From Burkholderia sp. BCC0322 (GTDB lineage Bacteria; Pseudomonadota; Gammaproteobacteria; Burkholderiales; Burkholderiaceae): DNA of 64,000 nt. Position numbers and translations under genes: made by a program. Under the pieces are notes generated by a model, which was not told the origin of the DNA, ran no database searches, and saw only the letters and a list, made by a program, of their open reading frames with translations. The stretch's first letter is position 1. Every line of letters begins with the position of its first letter. Below, piece after piece: positions 12,849-34,080 of the stretch. The stretch covers positions 761,927 to 825,926 of the forward strand of contig NZ_CADFDU010000001.1 in assembly GCF_902833045.1 (NCBI RefSeq), in the 5' to 3' direction.

Positions 12849-12871
12849 GGATTCAACCGGTCGATGCAACA
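12849..12871 (+). repeat. left terminal inverted repeat of the IS30-family element
   Basis: 23 bp, starting GGATTCAACCGGTCG. It is the exact reverse complement of 14049-14071. Confidence 0.93.
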
Positions 12872-12906
12872 CACTAGAATCTGCGCAAGCAGTGGAGGTG
12901 TTGCAA

Positions 12907-17222: not shown

Positions 17223-17253
17223 TTGCACCTGACGCTACGTCAGCTTTTATGGT
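17223..17253 (+). promoter_or_regulatory. MerR-type promoter and operator
   Basis: A -35-like TTGCAC (17223-17228) and a -10-like TATGGT (17248-17253) are separated by 19 bp, the long spacer typical of MerR-controlled promoters. The spacer holds a perfect dyad, CTGACG CTA CGTCAG (17229-17243). Transcription would begin near 17260, which excludes the ATG at 17249 and points to ATG 17276 as the start of the MerR fusion gene. Confidence 0.7.
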
Positions 17254-17275
17254 CGACTCCGACGACTGGGAAAAC

Positions 17276-19168
17276 ATGCGACTGAAAATCGGCGATCTGG
17301 CGAAGAAGGCAGGACTGAGCGTCCGGACCTTGCATCACTACGATGCAATCGGGCTGCTGTCACCGTCGCAGCGCACCGACGGCGGCGCGCGCCTGTATGG
17401 GCGCGACGACCTCATCCGGCTGCATCGGATCGAGGCGCTGAAGCGGTTCGGGTATTCGCTGCCGGACATCAAGGCCAGCCTCGACGGCCAACTGGCCGGC
17501 TCACCGCTCCAGCTTCTGCAGCGCCAGATCGCGGAGCTCGATGCGCAGGCATCGCGCGCGCAGCGCCTTGGTCGTCACCTGAGATACCTCGTGGACATGA
17601 TCGCCGCCGGCGACGAGACCACGGCGACCGACTGGCTGAACGCTCTGGAGCTGATGAACATGATCCAAAAACACCTTGATGACGACGAACTCGATACGTT
17701 GCTGGCATCCGGGCCGGATACGATCGCGCCGACGGACCCATCGTGGGTCGCGCTGATCGACGAGGTCCGCGTTGCCTGGCAGCAGGCGCTGCCGGCCGAC
17801 AGCGAAGCCGCCCACGCACTGGCATGGCGCTGGATCCGGCTCGTGGTCCGCATGACCCGCAACGACCCGACGCTCGCGACCAAGCTGATGATGATGCAGC
17901 TCGACGAGCCGCGCGCCCCGCAAATCGTCGGCATCACGGCCGGGATGCTGGCATGGATCGACGAAGCGTTCACGCACGCGCGTTGCGCGCTGCTTGCGAA
18001 GTACCTCGATCCGGCTCAGGCCGACGAAGTGCGGCGGCGCCAGTTCGCCGCGATGAAGCATCGGGCGTGGCCGGCACTGGTGGTCGAACTGAGAGCGCAC
18101 ATGGAGGCGGGCGTCGACGCCGGCGCCGCTGCGGTGCAAGCCATCGTGAGGCGCTGGCAGCAGCTGTTTCTCGACAGCTTCTGCGGCAGCGACGCCGCGC
18201 TGGAAGCGCGTGTGCGCGATGCGATGATGCGCGAACCGGATCTGCAACTGGGCATCGGCCTCGACGATGCGCTGCTGGCCTATCTGAACCGGGCGTATAT
18301 CGTCGGCCACGACACGACACCGGTGAACGCCGGGCCCAAGCCGAGCGCGTTGATGGTGGCCACGCAGCGGGCCGCGCACCAGCTGCTCGACCGGCCGCTG
18401 GTGCTCGACGATCCGGTCGCACTGACCGTCCTAGGGCCGGCCGAGGCGCAGGCCTTGCACGACAACCTCGACAAGTTCCGCGAGCCGATGACCGTGGGCA
18501 TGCGCAGCACGGTGGTCGTACGCAGCAGGCTGGCCGACGACGTCTGGGTCGATGCGATCGAACGTGGCATCCGCCAGTATGTGGTGCTCGGCGCGGGGCT
18601 CGATACCAGCGCATACCGGCGACCCGATGCGCCGGGGCGCGTGTTCGAGGTCGACTTGCCGGCGACGCAGGCGTGGAAGCGGGCCCGCTTGCGCGAGGCG
18701 GGCATCGCGGTGCCGGCGTCGCTGCAATTCGTGCCGGTCGATTTCGAGCGTGTCGGTCTCGCGCAAGGGCTGGCGCGCGCCGGTTTCGATGCCGATGCGC
18801 CGGCGCTGTTCAGCTGGCTGGGCGTGACGATGTATCTCGACGAGGCCGCGGTCATCGAGACGCTGCGCTTCATCGCCGGTTGCGCGAAAGGCAGCGCCGT
18901 ACTGCTCGAGTATGTGGTTCCGCTGCCGAGCCTGCCGCCGATCATGCGCATCGCGATGGAGCAGATGGTGGCGCGATTCGCCGAGCGCGGTGAACCGTGG
19001 AAGAGCTTCTTCGAACCCGCCGAGTTGACCAAGCGGTTGGCTGCGCTGGGCTTCAGCCACTGCAACACGTGGACGCCGGACGAGTTGAACCGGCGTTATC
19101 TCGCGAATCGTTCTGACGGGCTGCACATCGGCGCGTCACCGGGGCGTCTGGTTCTGGCCACCGTCTGA
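17276..19168 (+). CDS. MerR regulator fused to a SAM-dependent methyltransferase
   Basis: A 630-aa two-part protein. Residues 1-100 form a MerR DNA-binding domain and coiled coil (MRLKIGDLAKKAGLSVRTLH, YDAIGLLSP). A helical middle (about 110-340) resembles the antibiotic-binding region of TipAL-type regulators. The C-terminal third is a leucine-carboxyl/polyketide-type methyltransferase with the SAM motif VLGAGLDTSAYR (G439-T444), VFEVDLPATQAWK and WLGVTMYLDE. Its own promoter carries a MerR-type dyad, so autoregulation is likely. A catalytic domain on a MerR protein is unusual and may link DNA binding to a metabolite or modification state. The methyl acceptor is unknown. Confidence 0.85.
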   Translation: MRLKIGDLAKKAGLSVRTLHHYDAIGLLSPSQRTDGGARLYGRDDLIRLHRIEALKRFGYSLPDIKASLDGQLAGSPLQLLQRQIAELDAQASRAQRLGRHLRYLVDMIAAGDETTATDWLNALELMNMIQKHLDDDELDTLLASGPDTIAPTDPSWVALIDEVRVAWQQALPADSEAAHALAWRWIRLVVRMTRNDPTLATKLMMMQLDEPRAPQIVGITAGMLAWIDEAFTHARCALLAKYLDPAQADEVRRRQFAAMKHRAWPALVVELRAHMEAGVDAGAAAVQAIVRRWQQLFLDSFCGSDAALEARVRDAMMREPDLQLGIGLDDALLAYLNRAYIVGHDTTPVNAGPKPSALMVATQRAAHQLLDRPLVLDDPVALTVLGPAEAQALHDNLDKFREPMTVGMRSTVVVRSRLADDVWVDAIERGIRQYVVLGAGLDTSAYRRPDAPGRVFEVDLPATQAWKRARLREAGIAVPASLQFVPVDFERVGLAQGLARAGFDADAPALFSWLGVTMYLDEAAVIETLRFIAGCAKGSAVLLEYVVPLPSLPPIMRIAMEQMVARFAERGEPWKSFFEPAELTKRLAALGFSHCNTWTPDELNRRYLANRSDGLHIGASPGRLVLATV

Positions 19169-21180: not shown

Positions 21181-23481
21181 ATGAAACAGACTGAGACACA
21201 GCAGCAGGCAGCGTTCGACTATCACGAATTTCCGACCCCGGGGAAGGTCTCGGTCGTCGCCAGCAAGCCGCTCGTGACCCAGCGCGATCTCGCGCTGGCC
21301 TATACGCCGGGCGTGGCGGGCGTGTGCGAGGCGATCGCCGCTGATCCGCTGCAGGCGCACCGTTTCACGAGCCGCGGCAATCTGGTGGGCGTGATCACGA
21401 ACGGCACGGCCGTGCTGGGCCTGGGCAACATCGGCCCGCTCGCATCCAAGCCGGTCATGGAAGGCAAGGCCGTCCTGTTCAAGAAGTTCGCGGGGATCGA
21501 CGTCTTCGACATCGAGATCAACGAAACCGATCCGGACAAGCTGGTCGACATCATCGCCGGCCTCGAACCGACGTTCGGCGGCATCAACCTCGAGGACATC
21601 AAGGCGCCCGAGTGCTTCACGGTCGAGCAGAAGCTGCGCGAACGCATGAAGATTCCGGTCTTCCATGACGATCAGCACGGTACCGCCATCACCGTCTCCG
21701 CCGCGTTCATCAACGGGCTGAAGGTCGTCGGGAAGTCGATTTCGGAAGTGAAGGTCGTGACGTCGGGGGCCGGCGCCGCCGCGCTGGCCTGCCTGGACCT
21801 GCTGGTCGACCTCGGGCTGCCGGTTGAAAACGTCTGGGTGACCGACATCGAAGGCGTCGTCTATCGCGGCCGCACCACGCTGATGGACCCGGCCAAGTCG
21901 CGCTTTGCGCAGGAAACCGATGCGCGCAAGCTGGCTGAAGTCATCGGCGGCGCGGACGTGTTCCTGGGCCTGTCGGTCGGCGGCATCCTGACCGCCGACA
22001 TGCTGAAGGCGATGGCGCCGCGCCCGCTGATTCTCGCGCTGGCGAATCCCACTCCGGAAATCTTCCCGGAACTGGCGCATGCGACGCGCGACGACGTCGT
22101 GATCGCGACGGGCCGCTCGGACTACCCGAACCAGGTCAACAACGTCCTCTGCTTCCCGTACATCTTCCGCGGCGCGCTGGACGTGGGCGCGACGACCATC
22201 ACCCGTGAAATGGAGATCGCCGCGGTTCACGCGATCGCGGGGCTGGCCGAGGAAGAGCAGAACGAAGTCGTCGCGGCGGCCTATGGTGCTTACGACGTGG
22301 CGTTCGGCGCGCAATACCTGATTCCGAAGCCGTTCGACCCGCGCCTGATCGTCCGGATCGCGCCGGCCGTGGCCAAGGCGGCGATGGAAGGCGGCGTGGC
22401 GAAGCGCCCGCTGACCGATCTCGACGCGTACGTCGAGCAACTGCAGCAATTCGTCTACCATTCCGGCGCGTTCATGAAGCCGTTGTTCGCGACGGCGCGC
22501 CGGCTGGTGCGCGACGGCGGCAAGGCGCGGATCGTCTTTACCGAAGGCGAGGACGAGCGCGTGCTGCGCGCGGTGCAGGTGATCGTCGACGAGAAGCTGG
22601 CGCGGCCGATCCTGGTCGGGCGCCCGGAGGTGCTGCTGGCGCGCATCGAGCGTTTCGGCCTGCGGATCCGGCTCGGCCAGGATGTCGAGGTGACCAATCC
22701 CGAATATGACGAGCGGTTTCCGCAGTACTGGACGACGTATTGGGAGCTGCGCTGCCGGGACGGCATCTCGAAGGAAATGGCGCGGGTCGAGATGCGGCGC
22801 CGCCTGACGCTGATCGGCGCGATGATGGTGCGGCTCGGCGATGCGGACGGGATGATCTGCGGGACGGTGGGCGAGTATCACAACCACCTGCGGTTCGTCG
22901 ACGAAGTGATCGGGAAGAAGCCGGGGGCGTCGACCTATGCGGCGATGAACATCCTGTTGCTCGACCAGCGGACGGTCGCGCTGGTGGATACGCACGTCAA
23001 CGACAACCCGGACGCGGAGCAGATCGCGGAATTCACGATCGCCGCGGCGCGTCAGATGGAATGGCTGAATCTGACGCCGAAGGCGGCGTTGCTGTCGCGG
23101 TCGAACTTCGGGTCGGGGAGCGCGGCTTCGGGCGTGAAGATGCGCCGGGCGCTGGAGATCGTCCGGGAGCAGGCGCCGGATATCGAGGCGGACGGCGAAA
23201 TGCATGGCGACTGCGCGCTCGACGAGGGCTTGCGGTCGAAGCTGCTGCCGATGTCGCCGCTGAAGGGTGCTGCGAACCTGCTCGTTTGCCCGAACGTGGA
23301 TGCGGGGAACATCGCGTACAACCTGCTCAAGACCGAGGCGGGCAGCAACGTGGCGGTGGGGCCGTTCCTGCTGGGCGTCAACGCGCCGGTGAACATTCTC
23401 ACGTCGAGCTCGACGGTGCGGCGGATCGTGAACATGGCGGCTTTGACGGTGATCGAGGCGAATCGCAACGCGTCCGCGTGA
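21181..23481 (+). CDS. maeB: NADP-dependent malic enzyme with C-terminal phosphotransacetylase-like domain
   Basis: A 766-aa MaeB-type enzyme converting malate to pyruvate and CO2 with reduction of NADP. The N-terminal malic domain shows [32 protein letters not shown] and FHDDQHGTA (metal-binding acids). The nucleotide fold follows at about 160-420 ([17 protein letters not shown]). The C-terminal half (about 430-760) is a phosphate acetyltransferase-like regulatory domain, usually sensing acetyl-CoA. ATG 21181 is the family-like start; the ATG 48 bp upstream gives a tail without family resemblance. The divergent LysR gene is a candidate regulator. Confidence 0.93.
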
Positions 23482-23528
23482 ACAGGTAACGGAAGCGGGG
23501 CGGTGGCAACTCCGCAAGGCGCCGCGTA

Positions 23529-23557
23529 GCGGAATCCCGGTGGTGGCGGGGTTCCGC
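23529..23557 (+). terminator. hairpin after the malic enzyme gene
   Basis: GCGGAATCCC (23529-23538) pairs with GGGGTTCCGC (23548-23557), ten base pairs with one G-T wobble. It starts 48 bp after the stop codon. No T-run follows, so it may be a weak or factor-dependent terminator or an mRNA-stabilising stem. Confidence 0.4.
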
Positions 23558-23728
23558 TATCCGGTTGCCCGATGAACGGGTGCCGCTGGTGGTTCGTGGC
23601 GTGGTGCCGCGCATGCATGTCGAGGTCGGTCGAGACCGGCCTCGGACGTCGGCAATCGTTTGCGTGCAGCCAACCGGACATCGGCTTTACCCTGACGCGC
23701 ACCCGCCGCCTCGCCCGCACCCGTTCCC

Positions 23729-23748
23729 TGCACTAATGCTGTAGTGCA
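23729..23748. promoter_or_regulatory. dyad TGCACTA-N6-TAGTGCA
   Basis: A perfect 7-bp inverted repeat with a 6-bp spacer, about 170 bp before the glycoside hydrolase start. Its arms match the half-sites of the dyads at 843-867 and 2554-2576 (TrGTGCA), with one base less spacing. It may bind the same regulator (inference). Confidence 0.4.
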
Positions 23749-23917
23749 TTTAATCAGCATCACGTAACAACTGCCTCGGCGCGACACCCTGTCGCAGCCA
23801 CGTTTGATACCGATCCTAACCATTTTTTTAGGGCTCGCCACTTCCGATATCATCCGATAATTACCTTTTATTTTCGTCTAAAATCGCGCTTCTTCTTACT
23901 TTTGGACGGAAATTGTT

Positions 23918-24886
23918 TTGAAAAGACTGACGAAAAAACTCTCGCGCACGGCCATCGCCGCATGCGTTGCTTATGCCGGGCTCCTGCCTTTATCCCGGCC
24001 TGCCGAAGCCCAGGTCGAACCTCTGAAGAATCCCGTCTACGGTGTGACCCTCGACGACCTGACCAAGCTGGACGCGATCGTCGCGTCGCTGCAGAACCTG
24101 CCGTACAAACCCACCGTGCGTGTCGTGTTCGATCCGGGTACGTCGGCCGCCGACTACTACGCGCCGCTGCTGCGCCTGCATGCAGTCGCCTACGTGATGG
24201 GCGAAGTCTACGATTCTTACTATTTCCCTACGGATCTCGCGACGTATCAGGCACGTACGCAGGAACTGGTGTCGCAGTTGAAGAACACCGTCGACGTCTG
24301 GGAGATTGCGAACGAAATCAACGGCGAATGGCTGCGTAACGATCCGAGCGGCACGAAATCCGTGGTCAACTCGGAAGAGCAGCAGATCGGCCAGATGGTT
24401 GCGGCGGCCAACCAGATCGTCAAATCGAACGGCGGCAAGACGGCCATCACGCTGTACTACAACGACGACAGCAAGGGCAACAACTGCTGGGAGAAGCCGC
24501 AGGATTACTGGAAGACGTGGCCGACCACCTTCCTGTCCTCGACGGTCCGCCAGCAAGCCGACTACGCACTGTTCAGCTACTACCCGTACCAGGATTGCCC
24601 GGGGCTGAATCCGACGTGGAAGAACGATTTCGCGGCGCTGGAAAGCATCTTCCCGAACGCGAAGGTCGGCTTCGGCGAAATCGGTACCTCGGATACCTCC
24701 GCGCCGGCGTCGGTGCAGCAGAGCCTGATCAAGACGTACTACCCGATGGTCAACAGCATGGCCGATCCGCGTTTCATCGGCGGATTCTTCTGGTGGAACT
24801 ACGTCGAGCAAATGGTCCCGTATTCGACGAGCGCGTACTTCCAGCTGCTGCGTCAAACGATCATCACGCTCAAGGCGCCCAACTAA
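23918..24886 (+). CDS. exported glycoside hydrolase-like protein of the EPS locus
   Basis: A 322-aa secreted protein starting at TTG 23918, with GGACGG upstream, and a signal peptide ending near PAEAQ (residue about 32). The mature part looks like a (beta/alpha)8 glycosidase of clan A. The candidate acid/base is E133 (VWEIANEINGEW) and the candidate nucleophile E254 (VGFGEIGTS), 121 residues apart as expected. FFWWNYVEQ near the end fits the last barrel strand. It converges with nfrA and probably trims the polymer made by the NfrB-type synthase (inference). The family number cannot be set by eye. Confidence 0.7.
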   Translation: MKRLTKKLSRTAIAACVAYAGLLPLSRPAEAQVEPLKNPVYGVTLDDLTKLDAIVASLQNLPYKPTVRVVFDPGTSAADYYAPLLRLHAVAYVMGEVYDSYYFPTDLATYQARTQELVSQLKNTVDVWEIANEINGEWLRNDPSGTKSVVNSEEQQIGQMVAAANQIVKSNGGKTAITLYYNDDSKGNNCWEKPQDYWKTWPTTFLSSTVRQQADYALFSYYPYQDCPGLNPTWKNDFAALESIFPNAKVGFGEIGTSDTSAPASVQQSLIKTYYPMVNSMADPRFIGGFFWWNYVEQMVPYSTSAYFQLLRQTIITLKAPN

Positions 24887-24924
24887 GCAGTCGCGTCATT
24901 CGAAAGCAAGCGTCAGCGTCGCAG

Positions 24925-26619
24925 TCAGAACCACAATGTCGCGCGTACCACGAGACCCCGTGCGCGTGCCGCTGACGTCAACCCGAACCGGTATTGCACC
25001 GTGACATCCAGATAGCTTGCCGGCGCGCTATATCGGCCCTCGCGAAACCAGTACCGAAACTGGATGCCGGGCCCGGCGCCGATCGCCGTCTTGTCCGGCT
25101 CTCGATTGTCGTGATCGCCGGCCACCGCGGCGTGCGGGTAGACGGTCAGCCGATCGCTGATCATCGGCAACCGCCAGGTGTGCCCGTAACGCAACTCCGA
25201 ATAAATGATGTATCGACCCGCGCTGATGAAGTAAGCGCCCTCGATGTACGCCTGCCAGCTGCGCCAGCTCGGCTCGGTCACCCTCAGGTCGGTTCCGCCT
25301 TCCGACGAATAACCCAGGCGCATCAGCCAGTCCGTCATCGACAGGCTGCCGACGTGGAACAGCCGCTCGGCGGTCAGCACGACGTTCTGGTCGGGCAGCG
25401 GCTTGTAGCGCGCGCCCACCGAACCCTGCACGGTCGGCATGCCGGTCACGTTGCCCGTCCCGTCATAGGCCGTGCCGTATCCGCGCACGAAGAACTGGAA
25501 GATGCGGCCGTTCTGATAGCCGAACTTCGGCGGCTGCCAATACACTTCGATACCCGGCTGCAACACGCTGATGGTGCCTTGCGGCCCGAACGCGGCCGAC
25601 TGGTACGGCGCGCTCAGCACGAACCCCCAGGTGCGCTGAAGCTGCTCGACTTCGCGCCGATAGCCGAACTTGTGCTGCGCATCGAAGGTGTGTTCGTTTT
25701 CGTCGGCATCGAGGCTGTGCTCGAACAGGTCGATGGACTCCTGGTTCAGCCCGATCCGCTTGGCGGCGTAGCCCGCGTCCGCGTAGTTCATCGCATTGCC
25801 GGCACCGCCGGAAAATCCCGCGTTGAATGCGTCGAGCGCCTCGCGATCCTTGTGGTCGCGCAGGAGGTCGTAGGCTTCCTGCAATTTCTGTTGCGCGGTG
25901 TTGTCCACCGGCGCTTCGGCGGCCTGGTCTTCCTGCCGCGCCTGCGCCGCGATCGACGTGGCCATGTTGCGCTCGCCGTCGTTCGTCGCGTTGCCGGCCG
26001 CCAGGTCGGCCATGCGGATGGCGGTGTCGCGGTCGCCTGCCTGCAGGCTCATCTGCGCGATGCGCAACTGGATCACGGCCGATTTTTCATCGGCCAGCGG
26101 CGCCAGTGCAATGCCGGCTTCATGCGGACGCTTCGCCGCGAGCGCGCTGTCCGACCAGGCGAGACGCAGGTTGCGCTGCTGATCCTTGCTCCATTTCCCG
26201 GTCGCGACGGCGGCCGCGAAATCGCTGCAGGCAACGTCGTAGCGCATCTGGCGCTGCGCCAGGTAGCCATGCTGCGCGCGTACCGCCGCACTTTTCGGAA
26301 AACGAACGATCAGCGATTCGACCATTTCGTCCGCTTCGTCGACTTTTCCTTCCCGTCTGTATACGTCGACGAGCAGTAGCCCGAGCTGTTCGCTGCCGGG
26401 CTGCATCTTGATGGCGCGCGATGCGTACACCTCCGCGAGGGGCAGGTCGCCGGCGTTGATCGCCTTGTAGGCGCTGTCGGCGAGCTTGTAGGCCTTGGGT
26501 GTCAGTTGCTGGGCGGCGGATGCCGGCGCCTGCCAGGCCAGCGACACGGCGATCGCCAGTGCGCTCAGCCGTGCGCAGCGCTTGAGGCCGGCCGCGATCG
26601 GAAGTCTCGAATGCTTCAT
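24925..26619 (-). CDS. nfrA: NfrA-like outer-membrane TPR/beta-barrel protein
   Basis: A 564-aa protein related to the phage N4 adsorption protein A family. It has a signal peptide (ALAIAVSLAWQAPASAAQ), helical TPR-like repeats at about 40-300 (LADSAYKAINAGDLPLAEVY and similar), and a C-terminal part of about 230 residues rich in aromatic beta strands ending VVRATLWF, with the terminal Phe of an outer-membrane barrel. It is shorter than E. coli NfrA. ATG 26619 overlaps the nfrB stop as ATGA, so translation is coupled. NfrA is known to export the polysaccharide made by NfrB in E. coli. Confidence 0.8.
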   Translation of the reverse strand: MKHSRLPIAAGLKRCARLSALAIAVSLAWQAPASAAQQLTPKAYKLADSAYKAINAGDLPLAEVYASRAIKMQPGSEQLGLLLVDVYRREGKVDEADEMVESLIVRFPKSAAVRAQHGYLAQRQMRYDVACSDFAAAVATGKWSKDQQRNLRLAWSDSALAAKRPHEAGIALAPLADEKSAVIQLRIAQMSLQAGDRDTAIRMADLAAGNATNDGERNMATSIAAQARQEDQAAEAPVDNTAQQKLQEAYDLLRDHKDREALDAFNAGFSGGAGNAMNYADAGYAAKRIGLNQESIDLFEHSLDADENEHTFDAQHKFGYRREVEQLQRTWGFVLSAPYQSAAFGPQGTISVLQPGIEVYWQPPKFGYQNGRIFQFFVRGYGTAYDGTGNVTGMPTVQGSVGARYKPLPDQNVVLTAERLFHVGSLSMTDWLMRLGYSSEGGTDLRVTEPSWRSWQAYIEGAYFISAGRYIIYSELRYGHTWRLPMISDRLTVYPHAAVAGDHDNREPDKTAIGAGPGIQFRYWFREGRYSAPASYLDVTVQYRFGLTSAARARGLVVRATLWF

Positions 26620-28577
26620 GCCTGTTCTCCCGACGGTGTTTTTACGGGAGCGCCGTGCTGCGCCGCCGGATCGCCGTCGCGTGCGCGTGCGAGTTCGACG
26701 AAGCGCGAGTGCCGCGAGAGTTCGGCGGTAATCTCCGCATCGCACGCGATGAAGTAGGCCACGTTCGATCGGGCGCCCCGCCGCACCACATCCTGCTCGT
26801 CCTGGGTGAGCGGCCGTCCGACCGCGACGTTCAACGTGCCGTCGTCCGCCGTCGAAAACGGGATGGCGCGGTACGCGTACTGCAGTTCGAATGCCAGTGA
26901 ATCCGCGAAGTGGCCCACCGCGACGTTGCCGAGGCTCACCCGGGGCAACTCCGCCTGCTCGGCGATCGCATCCGCCAGCGATTCGGCGGATATCGCGCAG
27001 CCTTCGACCAGAAGTTCACCGAGCCGCTTGCCGCAGGTCAGTTGTTTCTCGAGGCTCGCCTGCAATTGCTCCAGCGTGACCACGCCCCAGCCGACCAGGA
27101 TCTCGCCGACTTTCAGGCGCACCTTCCCGAGTGCTTCGTTGGACAGGTAGGTATGACTGGTCTTGTCCCAGGCGATGGGCTTGCCGGTCGCGAGGTGGCG
27201 GATATAGATGCGCCACGCACGGCAAACCGCGTAGAAGTTGATCAGGTTGTTGACGAACATCCGCGGTATGGAGAGCAGCCCCTGGGTCGGGCCGTTCAGC
27301 TTGCTGACGAAATGGAAGCGCTGCCCGGCGCGCGCAAACAGCATCGCGGTGTTGATCCACAGCAGCGGCATGACCCAGTGGGCTGCCATGACGAACGAGG
27401 CGCCGGGCGGGATGACATGGCCGGATCGATGAAGCGCGCCCAGCAACAGGAAGTTGATCAGCACGCCATAGGCAACGACCGAAAACAGCGAAGTCACGAT
27501 GCCCTTGCGATCGTGGAAGAACATGTATCGCATCAGCAGATTGCCTTTCCAGCCGAGCTGCTCCCAGCCTTGAAATGCAATGCCGAGGATCCAGCGCGTG
27601 CGCTGACGGTACGCGGTACGAAATGTTTTCGGAAAATACTCGCGCGTGGCCAGCAGGTTTCGATTGACGGCGCCACCCTGCACACGCTTGTCCGCTGCAT
27701 CGCGCACGATCCCCGTCAGTGGAATGCACGCGAAGGTTTCCTTCATCCCCAGGTCTCTCAACCGAAAACTGAAGTCATAGTCCTCGGTCAGCGAGCTGGT
27801 GTTGAACGGCGCGCCGTTGCGCTCCTTCATCGCCGCTTCGATCGAGCGCCTGCTGTAGCACGATGCCACCCCTGCGCCGGGGACGATGCCGGTCAGCCGG
27901 GCGCGCACCGGTACATCCTTCTGGTGCGTCTCGCTGAAGTCGTCCAGGTAGCATCCGGCGACGAACTCGTTCCATTTCCGCGGCAACGACAGCACGGGAA
28001 GCTGGACCAGGTCGCTATCCGCCAGCGCGTGGTTGAGGTACTTGAGTTCGACCGGATGAATGACATCCTCGCAGTCGTGCATGACGACGCCCGCGAACTG
28101 AATGTGATGGACCGATTCGTAACGCAGGATGGCTTCGATGATCCAGTTCAGGCAGTCCGCCTTGCAGGTCGGCCCGTCGTTCATGACGGTCGCGCGCGTG
28201 ACCCTGCCCGGATACCGGCGGATCATCCGTTCGACCTCGGCGGTAGTCTCGGCATCGTTGTGATAGGTGCCGACGAATATCACGTATCGCTCGTACTCGA
28301 GCGTCGCCAACGTGTTTTCGATCATCTTGGCGATGACGTCGTATTCCTTCCACGCCGGCACCATCAGCGCCAGATGCCGCTCTTCCAGCGCGCGCAGCGT
28401 GCCGATATCAACCGTTTGGGATTTTTCGCGGCGCAGGATGCGACGGATTTCAAAGGACCAGTAGCAGGCGTCCAGCGTGAGGTCATCCAGTGTGCTCACC
28501 AGGATGACGATTGCGGTGACAATGGCGACAAGGTTGAGTGCATATAAATACGCATTCCAAATCATGTTATCCATCAT
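26616..28577 (-). CDS. nfrB: NfrB-like inner-membrane glycosyltransferase with c-di-GMP-binding MshEN domain
   Basis: A 653-aa family-2 glycosyltransferase. It has an N-terminal membrane helix (about 10-30), a catalytic domain with DCED (168-171), TEDYD (264-268) and QRTRW (325-329), and further membrane helices at about 345-460. The C-terminal MshEN/GspE-N module starts at about 488: KVGEILVGWGVVTLEQL, then RLGELLVEGCAISAESL. These match the tandem nucleotide-binding motif, with Cys replacing Gly in the second. E. coli NfrB is reported to be a c-di-GMP-gated glycosyltransferase. ATG 28577 follows GCGGAACAA; the longer frame lacks family-like sequence. Confidence 0.85.
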   Translation of the reverse strand: MMDNMIWNAYLYALNLVAIVTAIVILVSTLDDLTLDACYWSFEIRRILRREKSQTVDIGTLRALEERHLALMVPAWKEYDVIAKMIENTLATLEYERYVIFVGTYHNDAETTAEVERMIRRYPGRVTRATVMNDGPTCKADCLNWIIEAILRYESVHHIQFAGVVMHDCEDVIHPVELKYLNHALADSDLVQLPVLSLPRKWNEFVAGCYLDDFSETHQKDVPVRARLTGIVPGAGVASCYSRRSIEAAMKERNGAPFNTSSLTEDYDFSFRLRDLGMKETFACIPLTGIVRDAADKRVQGGAVNRNLLATREYFPKTFRTAYRQRTRWILGIAFQGWEQLGWKGNLLMRYMFFHDRKGIVTSLFSVVAYGVLINFLLLGALHRSGHVIPPGASFVMAAHWVMPLLWINTAMLFARAGQRFHFVSKLNGPTQGLLSIPRMFVNNLINFYAVCRAWRIYIRHLATGKPIAWDKTSHTYLSNEALGKVRLKVGEILVGWGVVTLEQLQASLEKQLTCGKRLGELLVEGCAISAESLADAIAEQAELPRVSLGNVAVGHFADSLAFELQYAYRAIPFSTADDGTLNVAVGRPLTQDEQDVVRRGARSNVAYFIACDAEITAELSRHSRFVELARARDGDPAAQHGAPVKTPSGEQA

Positions 28578-28740
28578 TTGTTCCGCACTTTTATCTTGTA
28601 CTGGATGATTCCTCCTCGTACCGACGCAAGACGAAACCTTCCCCGTCCTCGTCGCCCCCGTCATGTCCACGCCTTCGCTTGCGCCACGCGAATGCCTGTC
28701 AACCGGAACAGCCCTGTCGACACGCGAGCTTTCCCGATGT

Positions 28741-28774
28741 GAACACGTTGCATCGTGCGCGATGCAACGTGTTC
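28741..28774. repeat. perfect 34-nt palindrome
   Basis: GAACACGTTGCATCG (28741-28755), loop TGCG, CGATGCAACGTGTTC (28760-28774). All 15 pairs match. T5 lies 10 nt beyond it on the plus strand. It could be an operator, or a terminator for an unrecognised transcript. Confidence 0.9.
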
Positions 28775-28998
28775 AGTGGATGACTTTTTGACCGCCCGTT
28801 TCCCGCTTTCCTGCTTCCGTGCCTGCATGCTTGAACGCTTGCAGCGGCTTTCCACCCGGCACCCGCGCGGTGCTCCCCGCGCACCGGCTTCGCGGCACAC
28901 AGATCATGTAGCAAGTCGTGCGCCATCGCGGCGTGACCCTTGAGGCTGCGGGCGGCGCGCGAAGCGGCACCGGACCGGTCCGCCGAATCCGAGCCAAA

Positions 28999-29016
28999 TG
29001 TTTCAGTGCTGAAACA
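28999..29016. promoter_or_regulatory. 18-bp palindrome, activator site candidate
   Basis: TGTTTCAG TG CTGAAACA, perfect, about 365 bp before the sigma-54-like promoter at 29380. Position and TGT...ACA ends suit an enhancer-binding-protein site. No specific protein can be named. Confidence 0.5.
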
Positions 29017-29379
29017 CGCGGCCGATCGACTGCATCACACATCGTTTTCAGACCCACTGGCGGATCGCGTCAGCCGCCCCCGGGAGATCGTCATGCGATC
29101 CCGGTGGTGACTGTCTGGATGGATTGGCGTCGAACCGGAAAGCCGACGCCCGAGTCGTCATTGCGCGTGCATGCCCCCTGTGGAGCGCGCCGCATCGCGT
29201 GCTGCGCCGCGCGGTGATCGACTGGTTTTCCCTGAATCGTACGAACGGGTTTCGCGCGTTTGTCCGATTTGATTCGTATCGCAACCGCGTTGCACGCCTG
29301 AAACGTTTTATCGACGCATTTTCGAAATGTGTCGCTGCGTCGATTTTGTCCTCTTGGCCCTATGCCCATTTGCGACGGA

Positions 29380-29395
29380 TGGTACGGTTCTAGCT
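29380..29395 (+). promoter_or_regulatory. sigma-54-like promoter
   Basis: TGGTACGGTTCTAGCT shows the GG-N10-GC spacing and matches the consensus TGGCACG-N4-TTGCW except for one base in each half. It lies about 155 bp upstream of the small exported-protein gene at 29548 and would drive the downstream EPS enzyme genes. Confidence 0.5.
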
Positions 29396-29547
29396 TGAAA
29401 GTCAAACCATCTCCTCCCGGATTTATTTGTCTGGTTTCAATTGCGCCGCGGAATTTCACGACATGGCGCCCCGATTCCGGATGGTGATTCGCCGTGCTCG
29501 TTTCGTTAACGAGATGAATTTATTTTGCATATCAAAGGATGAAAATC

Positions 29548-29844
29548 ATGCCTTCGCATCGCAAGCAATCTTTTCGAAACGGGTTGAGCACAGCCGGATC
29601 AATCGTCGCATTGATCGCGACGCTCGTCTTTGCCGTCGGCGTTCAGGATGTGGGGGCGCAGCAGACGAGTAATTCCTCTGCTCCGAAGATCAAACCGCCT
29701 CCGCTGCCGGTCGGCTCGGCCCAGATCAACGTGAAAGCAGGGATGTCCGACGAGGATTGGGACAAGGCGTACAAGGAAACGGGGCGCCCGAAGTTCAACC
29801 GGAAGTGGGTCAAGAAATCCAACGGCAATGTGGAACGCGAATAG
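29548..29844 (+). CDS. small exported protein of the EPS locus
   Basis: A 98-aa protein with a signal peptide (ALIATLVFAVGV, cleavage near VGAQ, residue about 37). The mature part is Pro-rich then charged (MSDEDWDKAYKETGRPKFNR). ATG 29548 is chosen because AAAGGA lies 8 bases before it; the in-frame ATG at 29539 abuts that site. It is 12 bp upstream of the DUF2334 gene, so they form an operon. Role unknown; possibly a periplasmic accessory factor. Confidence 0.7.
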   Translation: MPSHRKQSFRNGLSTAGSIVALIATLVFAVGVQDVGAQQTSNSSAPKIKPPPLPVGSAQINVKAGMSDEDWDKAYKETGRPKFNRKWVKKSNGNVERE

Positions 29845-29856
29845 GGAGAAACGGCC

Positions 29857-31497
29857 ATGAAAAAGATCTTGCTCGTCATCGCCCTGCTCGCGGGACTCGC
29901 GCAAATGACATTGCCGGGCACCGCCCACGCACAGGCCACCACTGCCCATACGCTCGTGCTGTACGACAATCCGGCCAACGATCCCTATTCGAAGCTGGGA
30001 CTGATGTACAGCATCATGCTGAGGAACTTGTTGGGCCACTTCAATACGACGGTCGATCTGGTTCCGATCCAGAACTACACGTCCGGAATGGTCGGCAGCC
30101 ACGATGCGACGTTCTATATCGGCGACTACTACAACAACCCGATTCCGACGGCGTTCATGAGCGACGTGATGACCACCACGAAGACGGTGGTCTGGTTCAA
30201 GTACAACCTGTGGCAGCTGGCCTGGAACACGGCCTACACGTTCAACCAGACCTTCGGGTTCAGCTTCCTGGGCCTCGCCGGGATGAACGCGACGCCTTCG
30301 GCGAGCAATCCGAATCCGGGCTTCTACGACACGGTCACGTACAAGAACCTGTCGATGGTCAAGTACTACTCGTATAACGCGTCGACCGGCGTCATCAGCG
30401 CGGATCCGGATGTCGGCCTGACCCAGATCAATTCCACCAAGGCGCAAGCGCTCGTCACCATCAAGAACAGCCAGAGCGGGGCAACCACGCCCTACATCGT
30501 GCGCTCGGGCAACTTCTGGTACTTCGCGGACATGCCGTTTTCCTACATCGGACCGACGGACCGCTACCTGGTGATTTGCGACATCCTGCACGACATCCTG
30601 CAGACCAATGCACCGGTGAATCACCGTGCGCTCGTCCGCCTGGAGGACCTCGATGCCTATACGACGACGAGTTCGATGCAGCAGCTGACGAATTACCTGT
30701 ACTCGAAGAAGATCCCGTTCACGATGGCCACCATCCCGGTGTATACGGACCCGAACGGCTATTACAACGGCGGCGTGCCGGAAACGATCCACCTGGCGCA
30801 GGCAACCGGCCTCAAGACTGCGCTGAACTATGCAATCGCGCGCGGCGGCTCGATCGTGATGCACGGTTATACGCACCAGTACGATTCGACGCCGAACCTG
30901 CAGAATGCAGTGAGCGGGAGCGACTACGAATTCTGGTTCGCCGTGCAGAACCGGCCGGTTGATGAGGACTCCATCCCGTGGGCGGAGGGCAGAATGGCCG
31001 ATGGCCTGGCGGAGTTCAAGACCAACGGCTACAAGGTCGTCGGCTTTGCCGCGCCGCAGTACCAGATGTCGCCGGCCGCATCGACGGCGACAGCCCTGAC
31101 GTTCCCGACCACATTCCAGCGGGCCGTGTATTACACCGCGACCAATCCGCAACTCGGAACGGGCGCCGCCAACCAGGACTTCTCGGCCGGGCAGTTTTTC
31201 CCGTACATCATCAACGCCGATTACTACGGGCAACGGATCGTTCCGGAGAACCTGGGCAGCATCCAGTACAACATCTGCAAAATCGACCCGTTCTCGTGCA
31301 TCTCGTACACGTGGCAGCAAATCGTGACCAATGCGCAGTATGGCCTGGCGGTGCGGGACGGTTTCGCGTCCTTCTTCTTCCATCCGTACTGGCTCGAACC
31401 GGATCTCGGATTGCCGGCGTTCCAGGACTTCCAGAGTCTCATTACCGGTATCACGAATCTGGGCTACAAGTGGGTGGACGGCACGACGGCCAAGTGA
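29857..31497 (+). CDS. DUF2334 polysaccharide deacetylase-like exported protein
   Basis: A 546-aa exported protein with a signal peptide ending AHAQA (about residue 27). The first 230 residues form an amidotransferase-like region; the second half is a DUF2334 domain in the polysaccharide deacetylase superfamily. Candidate metal ligands and catalytic acids are D264 and D266 in RLEDLDAY, and H336 and H340 in HGYTHQY. Such enzymes remove N-acetyl groups from exopolysaccharides. Its position after the small exported protein and near nfrAB suggests action on the exported polymer. Confidence 0.8.
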   Translation: MKKILLVIALLAGLAQMTLPGTAHAQATTAHTLVLYDNPANDPYSKLGLMYSIMLRNLLGHFNTTVDLVPIQNYTSGMVGSHDATFYIGDYYNNPIPTAFMSDVMTTTKTVVWFKYNLWQLAWNTAYTFNQTFGFSFLGLAGMNATPSASNPNPGFYDTVTYKNLSMVKYYSYNASTGVISADPDVGLTQINSTKAQALVTIKNSQSGATTPYIVRSGNFWYFADMPFSYIGPTDRYLVICDILHDILQTNAPVNHRALVRLEDLDAYTTTSSMQQLTNYLYSKKIPFTMATIPVYTDPNGYYNGGVPETIHLAQATGLKTALNYAIARGGSIVMHGYTHQYDSTPNLQNAVSGSDYEFWFAVQNRPVDEDSIPWAEGRMADGLAEFKTNGYKVVGFAAPQYQMSPAASTATALTFPTTFQRAVYYTATNPQLGTGAANQDFSAGQFFPYIINADYYGQRIVPENLGSIQYNICKIDPFSCISYTWQQIVTNAQYGLAVRDGFASFFFHPYWLEPDLGLPAFQDFQSLITGITNLGYKWVDGTTAK

Positions 31498-31603
31498 CGA
31501 CGACGTAGCGACAACCCCGTGCGACCCGCATTGGCAACGCGGGTCGCACGCATTCGCTTGATCGGCTACGATGACGCGCAGGCATGCTTCCGGGGAACCA
31601 GCG

Positions 31604-32572
31604 ATGACCACGTATGCGATCCCGGCCTTGCGCAGGATTCGACAGCGTATGGGCCGGTTCCGGCTCGCAGCACGGCCGGGCTTGCCTGCCGCCGCGCCGC
31701 GTTCGCCTCGCGCGGCGACGCTCGCGGCGATCGGCGCATCGCTCGTGGTGGCCGCCTGCAGCTGGACCGCGCACGACGTGCACGCGGACGGCATCGTCTG
31801 GCAGGTGGACAACGCGACGACCAATCCGTCCGGCAACTGGCAGATACTCGGCATACACGATCTGCTGATTCAGTGGACCGTCGTCGACGATACCGCGTAC
31901 CTCCCCAACACCCGCATCCAGCCTGCCGCGCATCTTCCCGACTGGGAACGTATCGGTCGTGAGCCGTGGGCCCGGAACGTGATCCTGGGGCTCGCCGGCT
32001 ACCAGGACGAAAAGCGCGCGCGCACCCATCTGTCGACGCTGGCCGACCAGTCGCTGGAAGTGGCGCGCGCATCGATCCCGCTGCATGTCACGGGCTACTA
32101 CTTTCCGGCCGAGATCGATCCGACCTGGCAGGACGCGCCCAAGCTCGCCGCGATCCTGCAACGGCTGCCGCGCCCGCTCTGGGTGAGCGTGTACGACCAG
32201 ACCAATATCGGCGGAAAGGCGCTCGCGGAGTGGCTCGCCGCGTGGCTGCCCGCGGATGTCGGCGTGTTCTTCCAGGATGGCTGCGGCGTCTATGCCCGCG
32301 AGCCGTATGTCGCGCGCAGCTACCTCGACGAGCTGGCTGCAAGGCTGGGCAAGCAGCGCGTGCGGGTCATCGCCGAGGCGTTCCGGCCCGCCGAGCGCGG
32401 CGGCTTCCGCTCCGCCAGCGCCGGCGAGTTGAGCAAGCAGTTGCTGGCGTATCGCGGCTATCCGGTCTATCTGTTCGATGGTCCGCACTATGTGTCGGAC
32501 GACCTCACGCGCGCGCTCTCGACGTGGAAGCCCACGCCGCCGCCGGCCGCGTCTTCCGGGACGCCGCACTGA
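31604..32572 (+). CDS. DUF4434-like lipoprotein of the EPS locus
   Basis: A 322-aa protein with a signal ending in a lipobox (SLVVAACSW, Cys at about residue 51), preceded by an unusually long basic N-terminus, so a start further downstream is possible. The mature domain (LLIQWTVVDDTAYLP, VTGYYFPAEIDPTW, DVGVFFQDGCG) resembles DUF4434-type TIM-barrel glycosidase relatives, with candidate acids in the AEID and FQDG strands. ATG 31604 follows GGGGAAC. It is 106 bp downstream of the DUF2334 gene, likely in the same operon. Confidence 0.6.
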   Translation: MTTYAIPALRRIRQRMGRFRLAARPGLPAAAPRSPRAATLAAIGASLVVAACSWTAHDVHADGIVWQVDNATTNPSGNWQILGIHDLLIQWTVVDDTAYLPNTRIQPAAHLPDWERIGREPWARNVILGLAGYQDEKRARTHLSTLADQSLEVARASIPLHVTGYYFPAEIDPTWQDAPKLAAILQRLPRPLWVSVYDQTNIGGKALAEWLAAWLPADVGVFFQDGCGVYAREPYVARSYLDELAARLGKQRVRVIAEAFRPAERGGFRSASAGELSKQLLAYRGYPVYLFDGPHYVSDDLTRALSTWKPTPPPAASSGTPH

Positions 32573-32880
32573 TCCGGCGCGATTCCGGCAAGCGGGGCAG
32601 GGCGGGCGCATCGCGAAACAATCGGCGGGATTGCCTTTCCGCCGGCAACACACGCCCGAAACCCGGTGCCGCCGCGCCGAAGGACGGGGCGTTTCGCCGC
32701 TCCCGCCCACGCCCCATGTGATGACCAAACCGCAAGACCTAGTGCATAGATATCGTTTGCCGCGGCCTTAATGACTCTCGACAATCGTGACTCGATTTCA
32801 CCGCCGCGGCGCCAGAAGCGCCGCGGTGGGCGGTCTCCGGCGGCTATCCCGGCCGTCCGCGCCATCCAGCTCACGACGAC
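32573..32880. other. intergenic region, 308 bp
   Basis: No gene seen. CGGCGG and CCGCCG near 32621-32645 could form a stem after the lipoprotein gene. The region before 32881 has no clear Shine-Dalgarno sequence for the aminotransferase ATG. Confidence 0.5.
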
Positions 32881-34080
32881 ATGTACGCGTTCACTCCCTC
32901 ATTCCAGAATCCCGCCGGCTCGCCGATCCGCGAACTGTTCAAGTATCTGTCCGAACCGGGCATGATTTCCTTCGCAGGCGGCTATCCGGCCAGCGACCTG
33001 TTCGACGTCGACGGCCTGGACGCAGCCGCCGAGCGTGCGTACGCGCAGCCCGTGCGCTGCCTGCAATACGGCCCGACCGACGGACTCGCCGAACTGAAGC
33101 AGCAACTGATCGCGCTGATGGGGCGCCGCGGCGTGGCGTGCACGCCGGCCGAACTGCTCGTCACGACCGGTTCGCAGCAGGGCCTCGACCTGCTGCTGCG
33201 CGTGATGGTGTCGCCCGGCGACGTCGTGCTGACCGAGCAGCCGGCCTATCCGGCGACGCTGCAGGCGATGCGTCTGCAGCAGGCGCGCATCGTGACGATT
33301 CCGGTCGACGGCGCGGGCCTCGACGTCGATCGTCTCGGCGAACAGCTTGCGTCCGGCGCGATCGCGCAGCCGAAGCTGCTCTATACGGTGCCGACCTTCG
33401 CGAACCCGACGGGCGCGACGCTCACGCGCGAGCGCCGGCTGAAGCTGCTGCGTCTCGCCGTGCAATACCGCTTCCTGATCGTCGAGGACGATCCGTACGG
33501 CGACCTGCGTTTCGCGGGCGAAGCCGTGCCGTCGATGCTCGCGCTCGCCGATCACGTGGACGGCGCGCGCGACTGGATCGTGCACTTCGCGAGCCTGTCG
33601 AAGATCGTCGCGCCAGGGCTGCGCGTGGGCTGGACGATCGCGCCGGCCGAGATCGCGCGGCGCTGCGTGATCGCGAAGCAGACGGTCGATCTGTGCAGCA
33701 CGCCGTGGACACAGGCGGCCGCCGCCGAATATTTGGCCGACGGCGCGCTCGAACGCCATCTGCCGCGCATCACGGCCGCCTACCAGCGCAAATGCGATGC
33801 GATGTGCGATGCGTTGCGCGACGGCCTTGGCGAGGCGATCGAATTCCACCGTCCCGAAGGCGGGATGTTCGTGTGGGCGCGGATCGGCGCGGTGTCGTCG
33901 GACGCGCTGCTGCAACAGGCGATCGCGAACAAGGTCGTGTTCGTGCCGGGCAAGGCGTTCTTCGCGGACAACGTCGACGCGGCCTCGCTGCGCCTGTCGT
34001 TTGCCGCGCCGGACGTCGACGCGATCCGGGAAGGCGTTGCGCGCCTCGTGCGCGCCTATGGTGCGGCGCTCGCCGCGTGA
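32881..34080 (+). CDS. PLP-dependent aminotransferase, class I/II (2-aminoadipate type)
   Basis: A 399-aa fold-type I aminotransferase. It has TTGSQQGLDLL (cofactor phosphate loop), TVPTFANPTGATL, VEDDPYGDLRF (ring-binding Asp/Tyr) and the PLP lysine in FASLSKIVAPGLRVGW. It resembles the LysN/MocR catalytic domain without a GntR DNA-binding part, a group acting on 2-aminoadipate, aromatic or branched amino acids. A 63-aa gene follows 12 bp downstream and is likely cotranscribed. Confidence 0.9.
   Translation: MYAFTPSFQNPAGSPIRELFKYLSEPGMISFAGGYPASDLFDVDGLDAAAERAYAQPVRCLQYGPTDGLAELKQQLIALMGRRGVACTPAELLVTTGSQQGLDLLLRVMVSPGDVVLTEQPAYPATLQAMRLQQARIVTIPVDGAGLDVDRLGEQLASGAIAQPKLLYTVPTFANPTGATLTRERRLKLLRLAVQYRFLIVEDDPYGDLRFAGEAVPSMLALADHVDGARDWIVHFASLSKIVAPGLRVGWTIAPAEIARRCVIAKQTVDLCSTPWTQAAAAEYLADGALERHLPRITAAYQRKCDAMCDALRDGLGEAIEFHRPEGGMFVWARIGAVSSDALLQQAIANKVVFVPGKAFFADNVDAASLRLSFAAPDVDAIREGVARLVRAYGAALAA

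Follow-up and report, generated by a model that had tools for sequence, protein, structure and literature searches.

What does the gene cluster at positions 23918..32572 of the window, the 64,000-nucleotide stretch of Burkholderia sp. BCC0322 DNA analyzed here, produce, and how does it relate to the nfr pathway of Escherichia coli? All six open reading frames claimed for this region by the first-pass annotation were found in place, with nfrAB on the minus strand opposite a small gene and a DUF2334 gene on the plus strand. NfrB, NfrA, and a YbcH relative make up the Burkholderiales version of the E. coli nfrBA-ybcH (N4 glycan receptor) pathway, and the additions to this known system are the DUF2334 protein, a small exported protein, and a clan GH-A-type hydrolase. 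The first-pass annotation had described four secreted partners: these three are indeed additions, whereas the fourth, a DUF4434-like protein, is a YbcH relative and belongs to the operon already known from E. coli. Sequence supports the description of the partners as secreted proteins or lipoproteins. The genes exist and are conserved as a set; the chemistry, that is, the polymer and the enzyme activities, is a prediction. We think it likely that the cluster is a tailored relative of the E. coli exopolysaccharide pathway, and its product is probably a c-di-GMP-gated polymer of N-acetylhexosamine, most plausibly ManNAc, that is partly de-N-acetylated before or after export.

The identity of NfrA and NfrB is supported by PF13283, the PRK15489 model, and alignment to both E. 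coli proteins. The gene nfrB (26616-28577, minus strand) encodes a processive GT2 synthase that scores 1043 bits against PRK15489 (NF012033; cut-off, 537), is 37.6% identical to E. coli NfrB, and retains HDxED, TED, and QxxRW, the motif set of an NfrB-type GT2 synthase (DxD/HDxED, TED, QxxRW). Its open frame spans 26616-28670, and the likely start lies at 28577, since the alignment of several relatives begins only at residues 31-33 of the long frame. At the C terminus we observe a tandem c-di-GMP motif of the MshEN type (26955..27110, minus strand), as had been claimed: it scores 49.5 bits against NF053729 (cut-off, 38) at residues 521-572 of the long frame, or 490-541 counted from the likely start, which matches the 488-541 of the first-pass annotation, and it reaches 22.2 bits with the Pfam MshEN model, just under the cut-off of 23.1. 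The module aligns to MshE (PDB 5HTL, E 9e-8) and to the MshEN domains of PilB/PilF. The repeat retains the glycines found to be important in E. coli. Motif 1 reads KVG instead of RLG, and Cys takes the place of the second glycine of motif 2. According to the available text of PMC8669469, E. coli NfrB binds c-di-GMP with a Kd of 1 uM.

The nfrA gene (24925-26622, minus strand; open frame extending to 26745) overlaps nfrB and encodes an outer-membrane TPR/beta-barrel exporter of 565 amino acids, with a PF13283 (NfrA_C) score of 174.5 bits (cut-off, 25) and TPR matches that stay under their cut-offs. It is about half as long as E. coli NfrA (990 amino acids), to which it aligns locally (E 4e-6). 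The third shared member, a YbcH/DUF4434-family predicted lipoprotein (31571-32572, plus strand; lipobox ending in AAC, by eye), falls under both curated cut-offs (PF14488, 12.9 versus 30; NF007404, 34.7 versus 344). Alignment to E. coli YbcH gives E 3e-5, and both proteins have the conserved E181, D236, and E269; the lipobox Cys occurs in the 14 Burkholderiales rows of the alignment and is absent from YbcH. In Trinickia, this gene lies directly 3' of nfrA, as ybcH does in E. coli. The protein is a YbcH family relative and, far under the YbcH equivalog cut-off, not an equivalog. No convincing PDB structure related to it by sequence was found.

The DUF2334 protein (29857-31497, plus strand; 546 amino acids; signal peptide by eye) matches PF10096 with 144.2 bits (cut-off, 26). 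In all 22 relatives compared we find E263-D264, H336xxxH340, R422 (its role assigned by position only), and H509, which is the ordered set of a NodB/CE-type enzyme: acidic base and Asp, HxxxH metal triad, Arg, and catalytic His. The catalytic base position is occupied by Glu, whereas characterized enzymes have Asp. Relatives that are 37-96% identical to the window protein all retain the entire set, an argument against the gene being dispensable. In a predicted model (pLDDT 77, with low confidence at residues 339-371, which include H340), the first Foldseek hit is the heparan sulfate N-deacetylase NDST1 (8CD0, E 2e-8, TM-score 0.32; PMC10864358), a fold-only match, followed by a GMP synthase and then ArnD (E 3e-6); the TM-scores of the NDST1 and ArnD hits are low. 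Agd3 was not among the best 50 hits, no solved PDB structure related by sequence was matched, and a phage source was dropped after the protein found no match in a phage collection. The complete active-site set and the fold match strengthen the earlier deacetylase reading, and we infer that the protein is a predicted metal-dependent polysaccharide de-N-acetylase.

Directly 5' of this gene lies the small exported protein (29539-29844, plus strand; 101 amino acids, proline-rich), which has no family match in Pfam or NCBIfam. The same arrangement was seen in all Burkholderiales loci inspected (Burkholderia, Trinickia, Paraburkholderia, Pararobbsia, Ralstonia, unlinked DUF2334 copies, and a Comamonadaceae plasmid), and no convincing counterpart was found in five Myxococcales loci. 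The small protein goes with DUF2334 and not with nfrAB as such.

Enzymes of clan GH-A have a (beta/alpha)8 barrel, with an NE acid/base after strand 4 and a nucleophile Glu at strand 7. The product of 23918-24886 (plus strand, TTG start, convergent with nfrA) has a signal-like N terminus ending AEA|Q (by eye), and both catalytic Glu residues, E133 within an NE pair and E254, are present in 21 of 21 relatives. In the predicted structure, a barrel (pLDDT 80), they occupy the ends of strands 4 and 7, so that sequence and model agree with the clan GH-A pattern. Foldseek returned GH1, GH10, and heparanase barrels (TM-scores of about 0.4-0.5), along with some nonhydrolase barrels in the top 50. The protein reaches no Pfam family at cut-off, hence carries no GH family number, and has no convincing PDB relative by sequence; it is a predicted secreted clan GH-A-type glycoside hydrolase.

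The earlier reading had been staked on conservation of the whole set with nfrAB, and such conservation is what a genome survey found. Of 43 fetched NfrB loci, 37 contain DUF2334, 31 the hydrolase, and 22 the DUF4434 protein, so the gene set is not a product of chance. The survey covered 249 genomes (37 with close NfrB, 44 with distant NfrB only, and 168 without NfrB), which are related, so that co-occurrence counts are not independent events and a hypergeometric figure calculated from them is not taken as a probability. DUF2334 is present in 37/37 genomes with close NfrB, lies within 15 kb at 35 of 39 NfrB places, and is found at E 1e-20 in none of the 44 genomes with distant NfrB only; the hydrolase is present in 36/37 and linked at 35/39 places. 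Away from NfrB we find 21 of 56 DUF2334 rows, some of them fragments, so this protein may serve other polymers, as well as 17 of 52 hydrolase rows. In one genome (G100), NfrAB and the hydrolase stay together with DUF2334 200 kb away. Gene orders differ among Burkholderia, Trinickia, Paraburkholderia, Ralstonia, and uncultured Myxococcales, and the Comamonadaceae plasmid carries the single-strand run wecB-nfrB-small-DUF2334-nfrA-DUF4434.

The product of wecB makes UDP-ManNAc. This gene lies inside the nfr locus in Trinickia, Paraburkholderia, and Ralstonia; WecB occurs in 37/37 genomes with close NfrB, compared with 62 of the 168 without NfrB, and at least 28 of the 39 NfrB places have it no more than 15 kb away. 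No wecB was seen beside the window locus, and its nearest relatives have the gene elsewhere.

Sigma-54 promoters are marked by a GG and a GC dinucleotide at a spacing of 10 bases, kept from species to species, and by an enhancer. A sigma-54-like element 5' of nfrB, TGGCGCACGACTTGC (28911..28925, minus strand, 1 mismatch), has both dinucleotides in 14 of 14 Burkholderia rows and a 16-base stretch identical in 11 of them, ranking 8th of 985 windows in conservation; a second, TGGTACGGTTCTAGC, 5' of the small gene (29380..29394, plus strand, 2 mismatches), ranks 20th of 985 over 14 Burkholderia rows. Such sites are frequent by chance (60 found versus 71 expected), and none with at most 2 mismatches precedes the five Trinickia operons checked. 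Between the two elements lies a perfect palindrome, TGTTTCAG-TG-CTGAAACA (28999..29016, no strand assigned), a candidate activator site. With up to 3 mismatches allowed, the window holds no other match; the expectation is 0.05, and one turned up in 5 of 100 shuffled sequences. The palindrome also ranks 8th of 985 in conservation, and a match with at most 1 mismatch is absent at nfrB in two of six Burkholderia genomes. Similar repeats are found 5' of some VpsR-type activator genes. The other palindrome matches lie away from nfr: one in genome G213 precedes such a gene, and the ORFs listed around one in G113 include none. The conserved sigma-54-like elements and the palindrome common to VpsR-type activator genes suggest a second control layer, for which the candidate activator would be a VpsR-type protein, BerB or another. 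No diguanylate cyclase, as found beside the locus in some Pseudomonas, was seen among the flanking ORFs scanned. The long spacer between nfrB and the small gene was also considered as the site of a riboswitch or another known RNA, an idea dropped because 23400-33000 holds no Rfam match at the gathering threshold.

Taken together, expression would probably proceed from sigma-54 with a VpsR-type activator, and c-di-GMP bound to the MshEN module would switch on the inner-membrane synthase, as published for E. coli NfrB. The sugar polymerized by NfrB would be an N-acetylhexosamine, with ManNAc from WecB as the most likely choice; WecB is the enzyme to which E. coli genetics points in the available text of PMC8669469. 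The DUF2334 enzyme and its small partner may then deacetylate part of the chain, in the envelope or after secretion, as active site and fold suggest, leaving free amino groups and positive charge. NfrA would export the chain with assistance from the YbcH-like lipoprotein, and the hydrolase might trim, release, or recycle the polymer. A tentative and rather doubtful extension is that the product is a poly-ManNAc that has lost part of its acetyl groups, a cationic polymer of mannosamine distinct from the products of the other systems compared here, under double c-di-GMP control by a VpsR-type activator on the promoter and MshEN on the synthase.

Unlinked DUF2334 copies in several genomes, and an unlinked hydrolase copy in Ralstonia (G003) and 14 further genomes, would fit a scenario in which both enzymes act on another glycan (peptidoglycan, O antigen, or a host or fungal polymer) and share only regulation with nfrAB. 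We regard this as unlikely, in view of the near-perfect co-occurrence of both genes with the close NfrB clade, a physical linkage that survives rearrangements, and the insertion of the small-DUF2334 pair between nfrB and nfrA in the plasmid operon. An ordinary nfrBA-ybcH locus that makes the E. coli polymer, with dispensable extra genes, would accommodate the kinship of synthase, exporter, and YbcH protein with their E. coli counterparts and the wecB linkage in many relatives; it appears very improbable against an active-site set kept whole over 37-96% identity and an E. coli K-12 operon that, neighboring genes included, lacks DUF2334 and hydrolase genes.

The sugar itself is less settled. Deacetylases of similar architecture act, in the available texts, on GalNAc (Agd3, PMC7229062; PelADA, PMC13254593) or GlcNAc (NDST1, PMC10864358) chains, and the polymer could conceivably consist of one of these, as in PNAG or Pel, with the wecB linkage reflecting a second use. 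We give this possibility limited weight against the occurrence of WecB in all 37 close-clade genomes, its place inside the locus in three genera, and the E. coli genetics (PMC8669469), and retain ManNAc as the probable residue.

Compared with the E. coli pathway (PMC8669469, PMC8669472), the locus has in common NfrB with a C-terminal MshEN, the NfrA exporter, a YbcH-family protein, and, judging from its relatives, dependence on or linkage with WecB. It differs in its three added genes, in an NfrA of about half the length, in an NfrB without the E. coli C-terminal extension, and in having nfrAB and DUF2334 on opposite strands. The Pel system comprises PelF, PelD, and PelB (synthase, c-di-GMP receptor, and exporter). 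The first-pass comparison with Pel holds as an analogy only: a hydrolase is paired with a deacetylase, as in Bacillus cereus PelADA (PMC13254593, available text) and Pseudomonas aeruginosa PelA (PMC12022489), but synthase and exporter differ, the two activities are encoded by separate genes, and the catalytic base is Glu, not Asp. A Pel identity for the locus was dropped, since searches of Pfam and NCBIfam gave no Pel match for any of its six genes. The active-site order is that described for Agd3 (CE18) in the available text of PMC7229062; unlike NDST1 and Agd3, the DUF2334 protein has no sulfotransferase domain, sits in a bacterial exopolysaccharide locus, and has no PDB match by sequence. 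The nfr locus of Simplicispira suum has an alginate-type acetylation module (PMC8669469, available text); such loci likewise hold polymer-modifying genes, yet they add O-acyl groups (AlgF, AlgX, MBOAT), whereas for the Burkholderia locus the prediction is removal of N-acetyl groups. An AlgF, AlgX, and MBOAT module was also seen here in L067.

Phage N4 uses the nfr pathway to enter E. coli, and the nfr polymer is known mainly as a phage receptor, chemically undefined in PMC8669469 and PMC8669472. No title or abstract in the literature searched reports an nfr locus with a DUF2334 or hydrolase gene, and the available text of PMC8669469 does not mention deacetyl-, glycosidase, glycoside, hydrolase, or DUF. 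The substrate preference of these enzymes would reveal the chemistry of the Nfr polymer, and the DUF2334 protein, whose name occurs in a single paper of the literature searched, would gain a role. If the cationic mannosamine polymer is real, deacetylation would remove the type of acetyl group on which the tailspike deacetylases of N4-like phages act, and the Nfr glycan could stay yet be hidden from N4-like phages. More broadly, with this locus the pairing of deacetylase and hydrolase familiar from Pel, PNAG, and galactosaminogalactan would reach a separate family of c-di-GMP-gated synthases in Burkholderia, Trinickia, Paraburkholderia, and Ralstonia.

All six genes that the first-pass annotation had named are found at window positions 23918-32572. 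A secreted hydrolase-like gene on the plus strand, starting at 23918, is the leftmost; to its right lie nfrA and nfrB, which overlap each other on the minus strand, and beyond a spacer of ~960 bases follow the small exported gene, the DUF2334 gene and the DUF4434-like lipoprotein gene, in that order and all on the plus strand, to 32572. The flanking genes that were scanned have housekeeping or unrelated roles (malic enzyme/phosphotransacetylase, an aminotransferase, LysR regulators). A transposase gene at 12838-14067, some 10 kb from the locus, encodes HTH and integrase-core domains and looks IS30-like by eye, and at 17249-19168 a leucine carboxyl methyltransferase-like domain is fused behind a MerR-type regulator in one gene. 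The closest relatives in the NfrB tree come from Burkholderia sp. D-99, B. puraquae, B. metallica and B. lata, and from the membership of these species we take the source to lie within the Burkholderia cepacia complex.

Judged by its core genes, the locus is of the nfrBA-ybcH kind. Over 671 columns, NfrB shares 37.6% identity with its E. coli K-12 counterpart, and it has the HDxED, TED and QxxRW motifs. The DUF4434-like protein, regarded earlier as an added partner, is instead a relative of YbcH and so already part of the nfr system: it aligns with E. coli YbcH (E 3e-5), the two have conserved acidic residues in common, and in Trinickia its gene directly follows nfrA, the same place as ybcH. 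Model NF007404 (cut-off, 344) gives 520 bits for E. coli YbcH and 34.7, below the cut-off, for the window protein. A close relative (E <1e-130, our own count) occurs in 23 of 37 genomes with close-clade NfrB (at least 55% identity), and 3 of the other 14 hold a more distant one; any match is seen in 56 of 249 genomes.

The expectation that nfrAB is conserved together with its partner genes holds across loci, genomes and gene orders. Among 43 NfrB loci from named genomes (our own count), we observe DUF2334 in 37, the hydrolase in 31, a DUF4434 protein in 22 and NfrA in 39; the six without DUF2334 are L011 and L041, which lie at contig ends, and L030, L031, L036 and L042. In a survey of 249 genomes from the family, close-clade NfrB is present in 37 and DUF2334 in 38, comprising all of these 37 and one genome (G167) where NfrA adjoins DUF2334 at a contig start. 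DUF2334 lies within 15 kb at 35 of 39 close-clade NfrB places, three of the four unlinked places being contig fragments and one (genome G100) real, whereas none of 44 genomes that have distant NfrB alone contains it at E 1e-20, and it is linked at 0 of 59 distant NfrB places. The hydrolase occurs in 36 of the 37 close-clade genomes (missing from G041) and is linked at 35 of 39 places, with 17 of 52 hydrolase rows unlinked. Since the genomes are related, these counts are not independent, and rearranged gene orders are stronger evidence for a real gene set. The genes of the set are divergent in Burkholderia, ordered small-DUF2334-wecB-nfrB-nfrA-ybcH-like with a convergent hydrolase in Trinickia, nfrB-nfrA-wecB-small-DUF2334-hydrolase in Ralstonia, and DUF2334-nfrB-nfrA in uncultured Myxococcales, where nfrA was not found in locus L039. 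In a tree of 52 NfrB proteins, the DUF2334-linked ones fall in one 40-row clade (100/99), 38 of them linked (exceptions, L055 and L011), with L071 apart. This Comamonadaceae plasmid locus carries wecB-nfrB-small-DUF2334-nfrA-DUF4434 on a single strand, and its divergent NfrB of 515 residues stops short of the MshEN part; it is a second nfr-DUF2334 association outside the clade, of unsure placement because of its long branch.

In the DUF2334 protein, E263-D264, H336xxxH340, R422 and H509 are the same in all 22 sequences aligned (relatives 37 to 96% identical to the window's). This order matches that of Agd3 and PelADA, namely base, metal ligand, HxxxH metal ligands, base-orienting Arg and catalytic His (accessible text of PMC7229062 and PMC13254593), although the base is Glu rather than Asp; from its position, R422 would be the base-orienting Arg. 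In the predicted model (mean pLDDT, 77; poor over residues 339-371, including H340), the N terminus forms an alpha/beta domain and the C terminus a deacetylase-like one. The top Foldseek match is NDST1, the human heparan sulfate N-deacetylase (8CD0, E 1.8e-8); next in rank come a GMP synthase, ArnD, a second GMP synthetase and ThuA-like proteins, and several CE4-type deacetylases appear lower in the list, all at low TM-scores; a sequence search of the PDB gave no match even at E 10. The proline-rich small exported gene lies directly 5' of DUF2334 in all Burkholderiales loci inspected, and the two look like one unit because they are also adjacent on the Comamonadaceae plasmid and at second, unlinked DUF2334 copies (L050-L053 and L056, 62 to 66% identical to the window's and away from any NfrB). 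No convincing small-protein counterpart precedes DUF2334 in five Myxococcales loci inspected. At locus L057 (genome G081), DUF2334 gene pieces lie at 14-976 and 4961-5239 of the same contig.

The hydrolase reaches the cut-off of no Pfam family. E133, within a W-E-x-x-N-E motif, and E254 do not vary in any of the 21 sequences, and the modelled structure (pLDDT 80) forms a beta/alpha barrel in which the two sit where strands 4 and 7 end, as in clan GH-A. Its first Foldseek matches are GH1, heparanase and GH10 barrels (TM about 0.4-0.5), and the top 50 also include aldolase-type and other non-hydrolase barrels. Fifteen genomes hold an unlinked copy such as those at L064:6617-7612, L065:6513-7508 and L066:6370-7365 (Ralstonia G003 and two further genomes), which are ~65-67% identical to the window protein, the genomes' own nfr-locus copy being ~40% identical. 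The pairing of a predicted deacetylase with a predicted hydrolase is shared with Pel and galactosaminogalactan systems, and to this extent the suggested Pel analogy stands; the locus itself, however, is neither of these. According to the accessible text on Agd3, Burkholderia has distant homologues of it and some Gram-negatives show Pel-like neighbours; NfrB is not named there (PMC7229062).

The MshEN module ascribed to NfrB is borne out by the NCBI model for the MshE-type c-di-GMP motif, which scores it at 49.5 bits (cut-off, 38), and by alignment of the NfrB C terminus with the MshE domain in PDB 5HTL (E 9e-8). Both RLG-type glycines are retained; their E. coli counterparts, G491 and G519, matter for N4 infection (PMC8669472, accessible text). 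Despite KVG at motif 1, Cys in the second glycine position of motif 2 and a Pfam MshEN score slightly under cut-off, this match and these glycines make c-di-GMP binding likely, as judged from sequence. For E. coli NfrB, the available portion of PMC8669469 gives a Kd of 1 µM, and its authors conclude that binding switches on the synthase.

Within the spacer, sigma-54-like sites precede nfrB (28911-28925; conservation rank, 8/985) and the small gene (29380-29394; 20/985), and a palindrome, TGTTTCAG-TG-CTGAAACA, lies at 28999-29016 (8/985), as ranked over 985 windows among 14 Burkholderia spacers of 70% mean pairwise identity. Against sigma-54 control, such sites show no excess over chance in the window (60 versus 71 expected), the leader to nfrB would exceed 300 bases, and none (at most 2 mismatches) precedes the hydrolase gene or five Trinickia operons. 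Even with 3 mismatches allowed, nothing else in the window matches the palindrome (0.05 matches expected; one arises in 5 of 100 shuffles); at up to 1 mismatch, six whole genomes have one or two matches each, of which one lies at nfrB in four genomes and none does in G113 and G213. In three Burkholderia genomes, GTTTC-N6-GAAAC repeats lie 5' of a single VpsR-domain sigma-54 activator gene each; they were not found at the other five VpsR loci fetched. A VpsR-type activator lies upstream of the nfr operon at each of the five Trinickia loci whose flank is long enough (L015-L019) and in L055, with a repeat of this type 5' of its gene in three of the five (L015, L017 and L018; 0.02 expected in single-base shuffles). 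VpsR responds to c-di-GMP. The Burkholderia activator BerB does so too (PMC5552954, accessible text), and for this reason double c-di-GMP control, of activator and synthase, is plausible.

WecB, which converts UDP-GlcNAc to UDP-ManNAc, is encoded in 37 of 37 close-clade, 53 of 56 distant-NfrB and 62 of 168 NfrB-less genomes, and at least 28 of 39 close-clade NfrB places have wecB no more than 15 kb away, in agreement with the proposal that E. coli NfrB uses UDP-ManNAc (PMC8669469, accessible text). None was seen beside the window locus, and relatives such as genome G001 carry it elsewhere. Plasmid pBPJTT of Burkholderia pyrrocinia (L073:9908-21150) holds an nfrB-nfrA-wecB group in which no DUF2334 gene is annotated, and 5 kb beyond it an alginate-lyase-family gene.

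Beyond families, motifs and linkage, which are read from sequence, we infer activities, sugar and regulators for the nfr locus. In the most likely mechanism, c-di-GMP would activate NfrB, whose chain would pass the inner membrane; the DUF2334 enzyme and its small partner would then remove acetyl groups from part of it, NfrA would export it, aided by the YbcH-like lipoprotein, and the hydrolase would trim or free the polymer. The published Nfr locus comparison names linked wecB, diguanylate cyclases and an alginate-type acetylation cluster, and the words deacetyl-, glycoside and hydrolase are absent from the paper (PMC8669469). At a distant NfrB locus (L067:9-12110, genome G029), AlgF, AlgX, MBOAT and AMP-ligase (by Pfam) and a 90-residue acyl-carrier-like protein (by eye) are encoded before the DUF4434 gene. 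They form an O-acylation module, the reverse of the tailoring predicted at the window locus, and Nfr loci thus seem to come with opposite tailoring modules.
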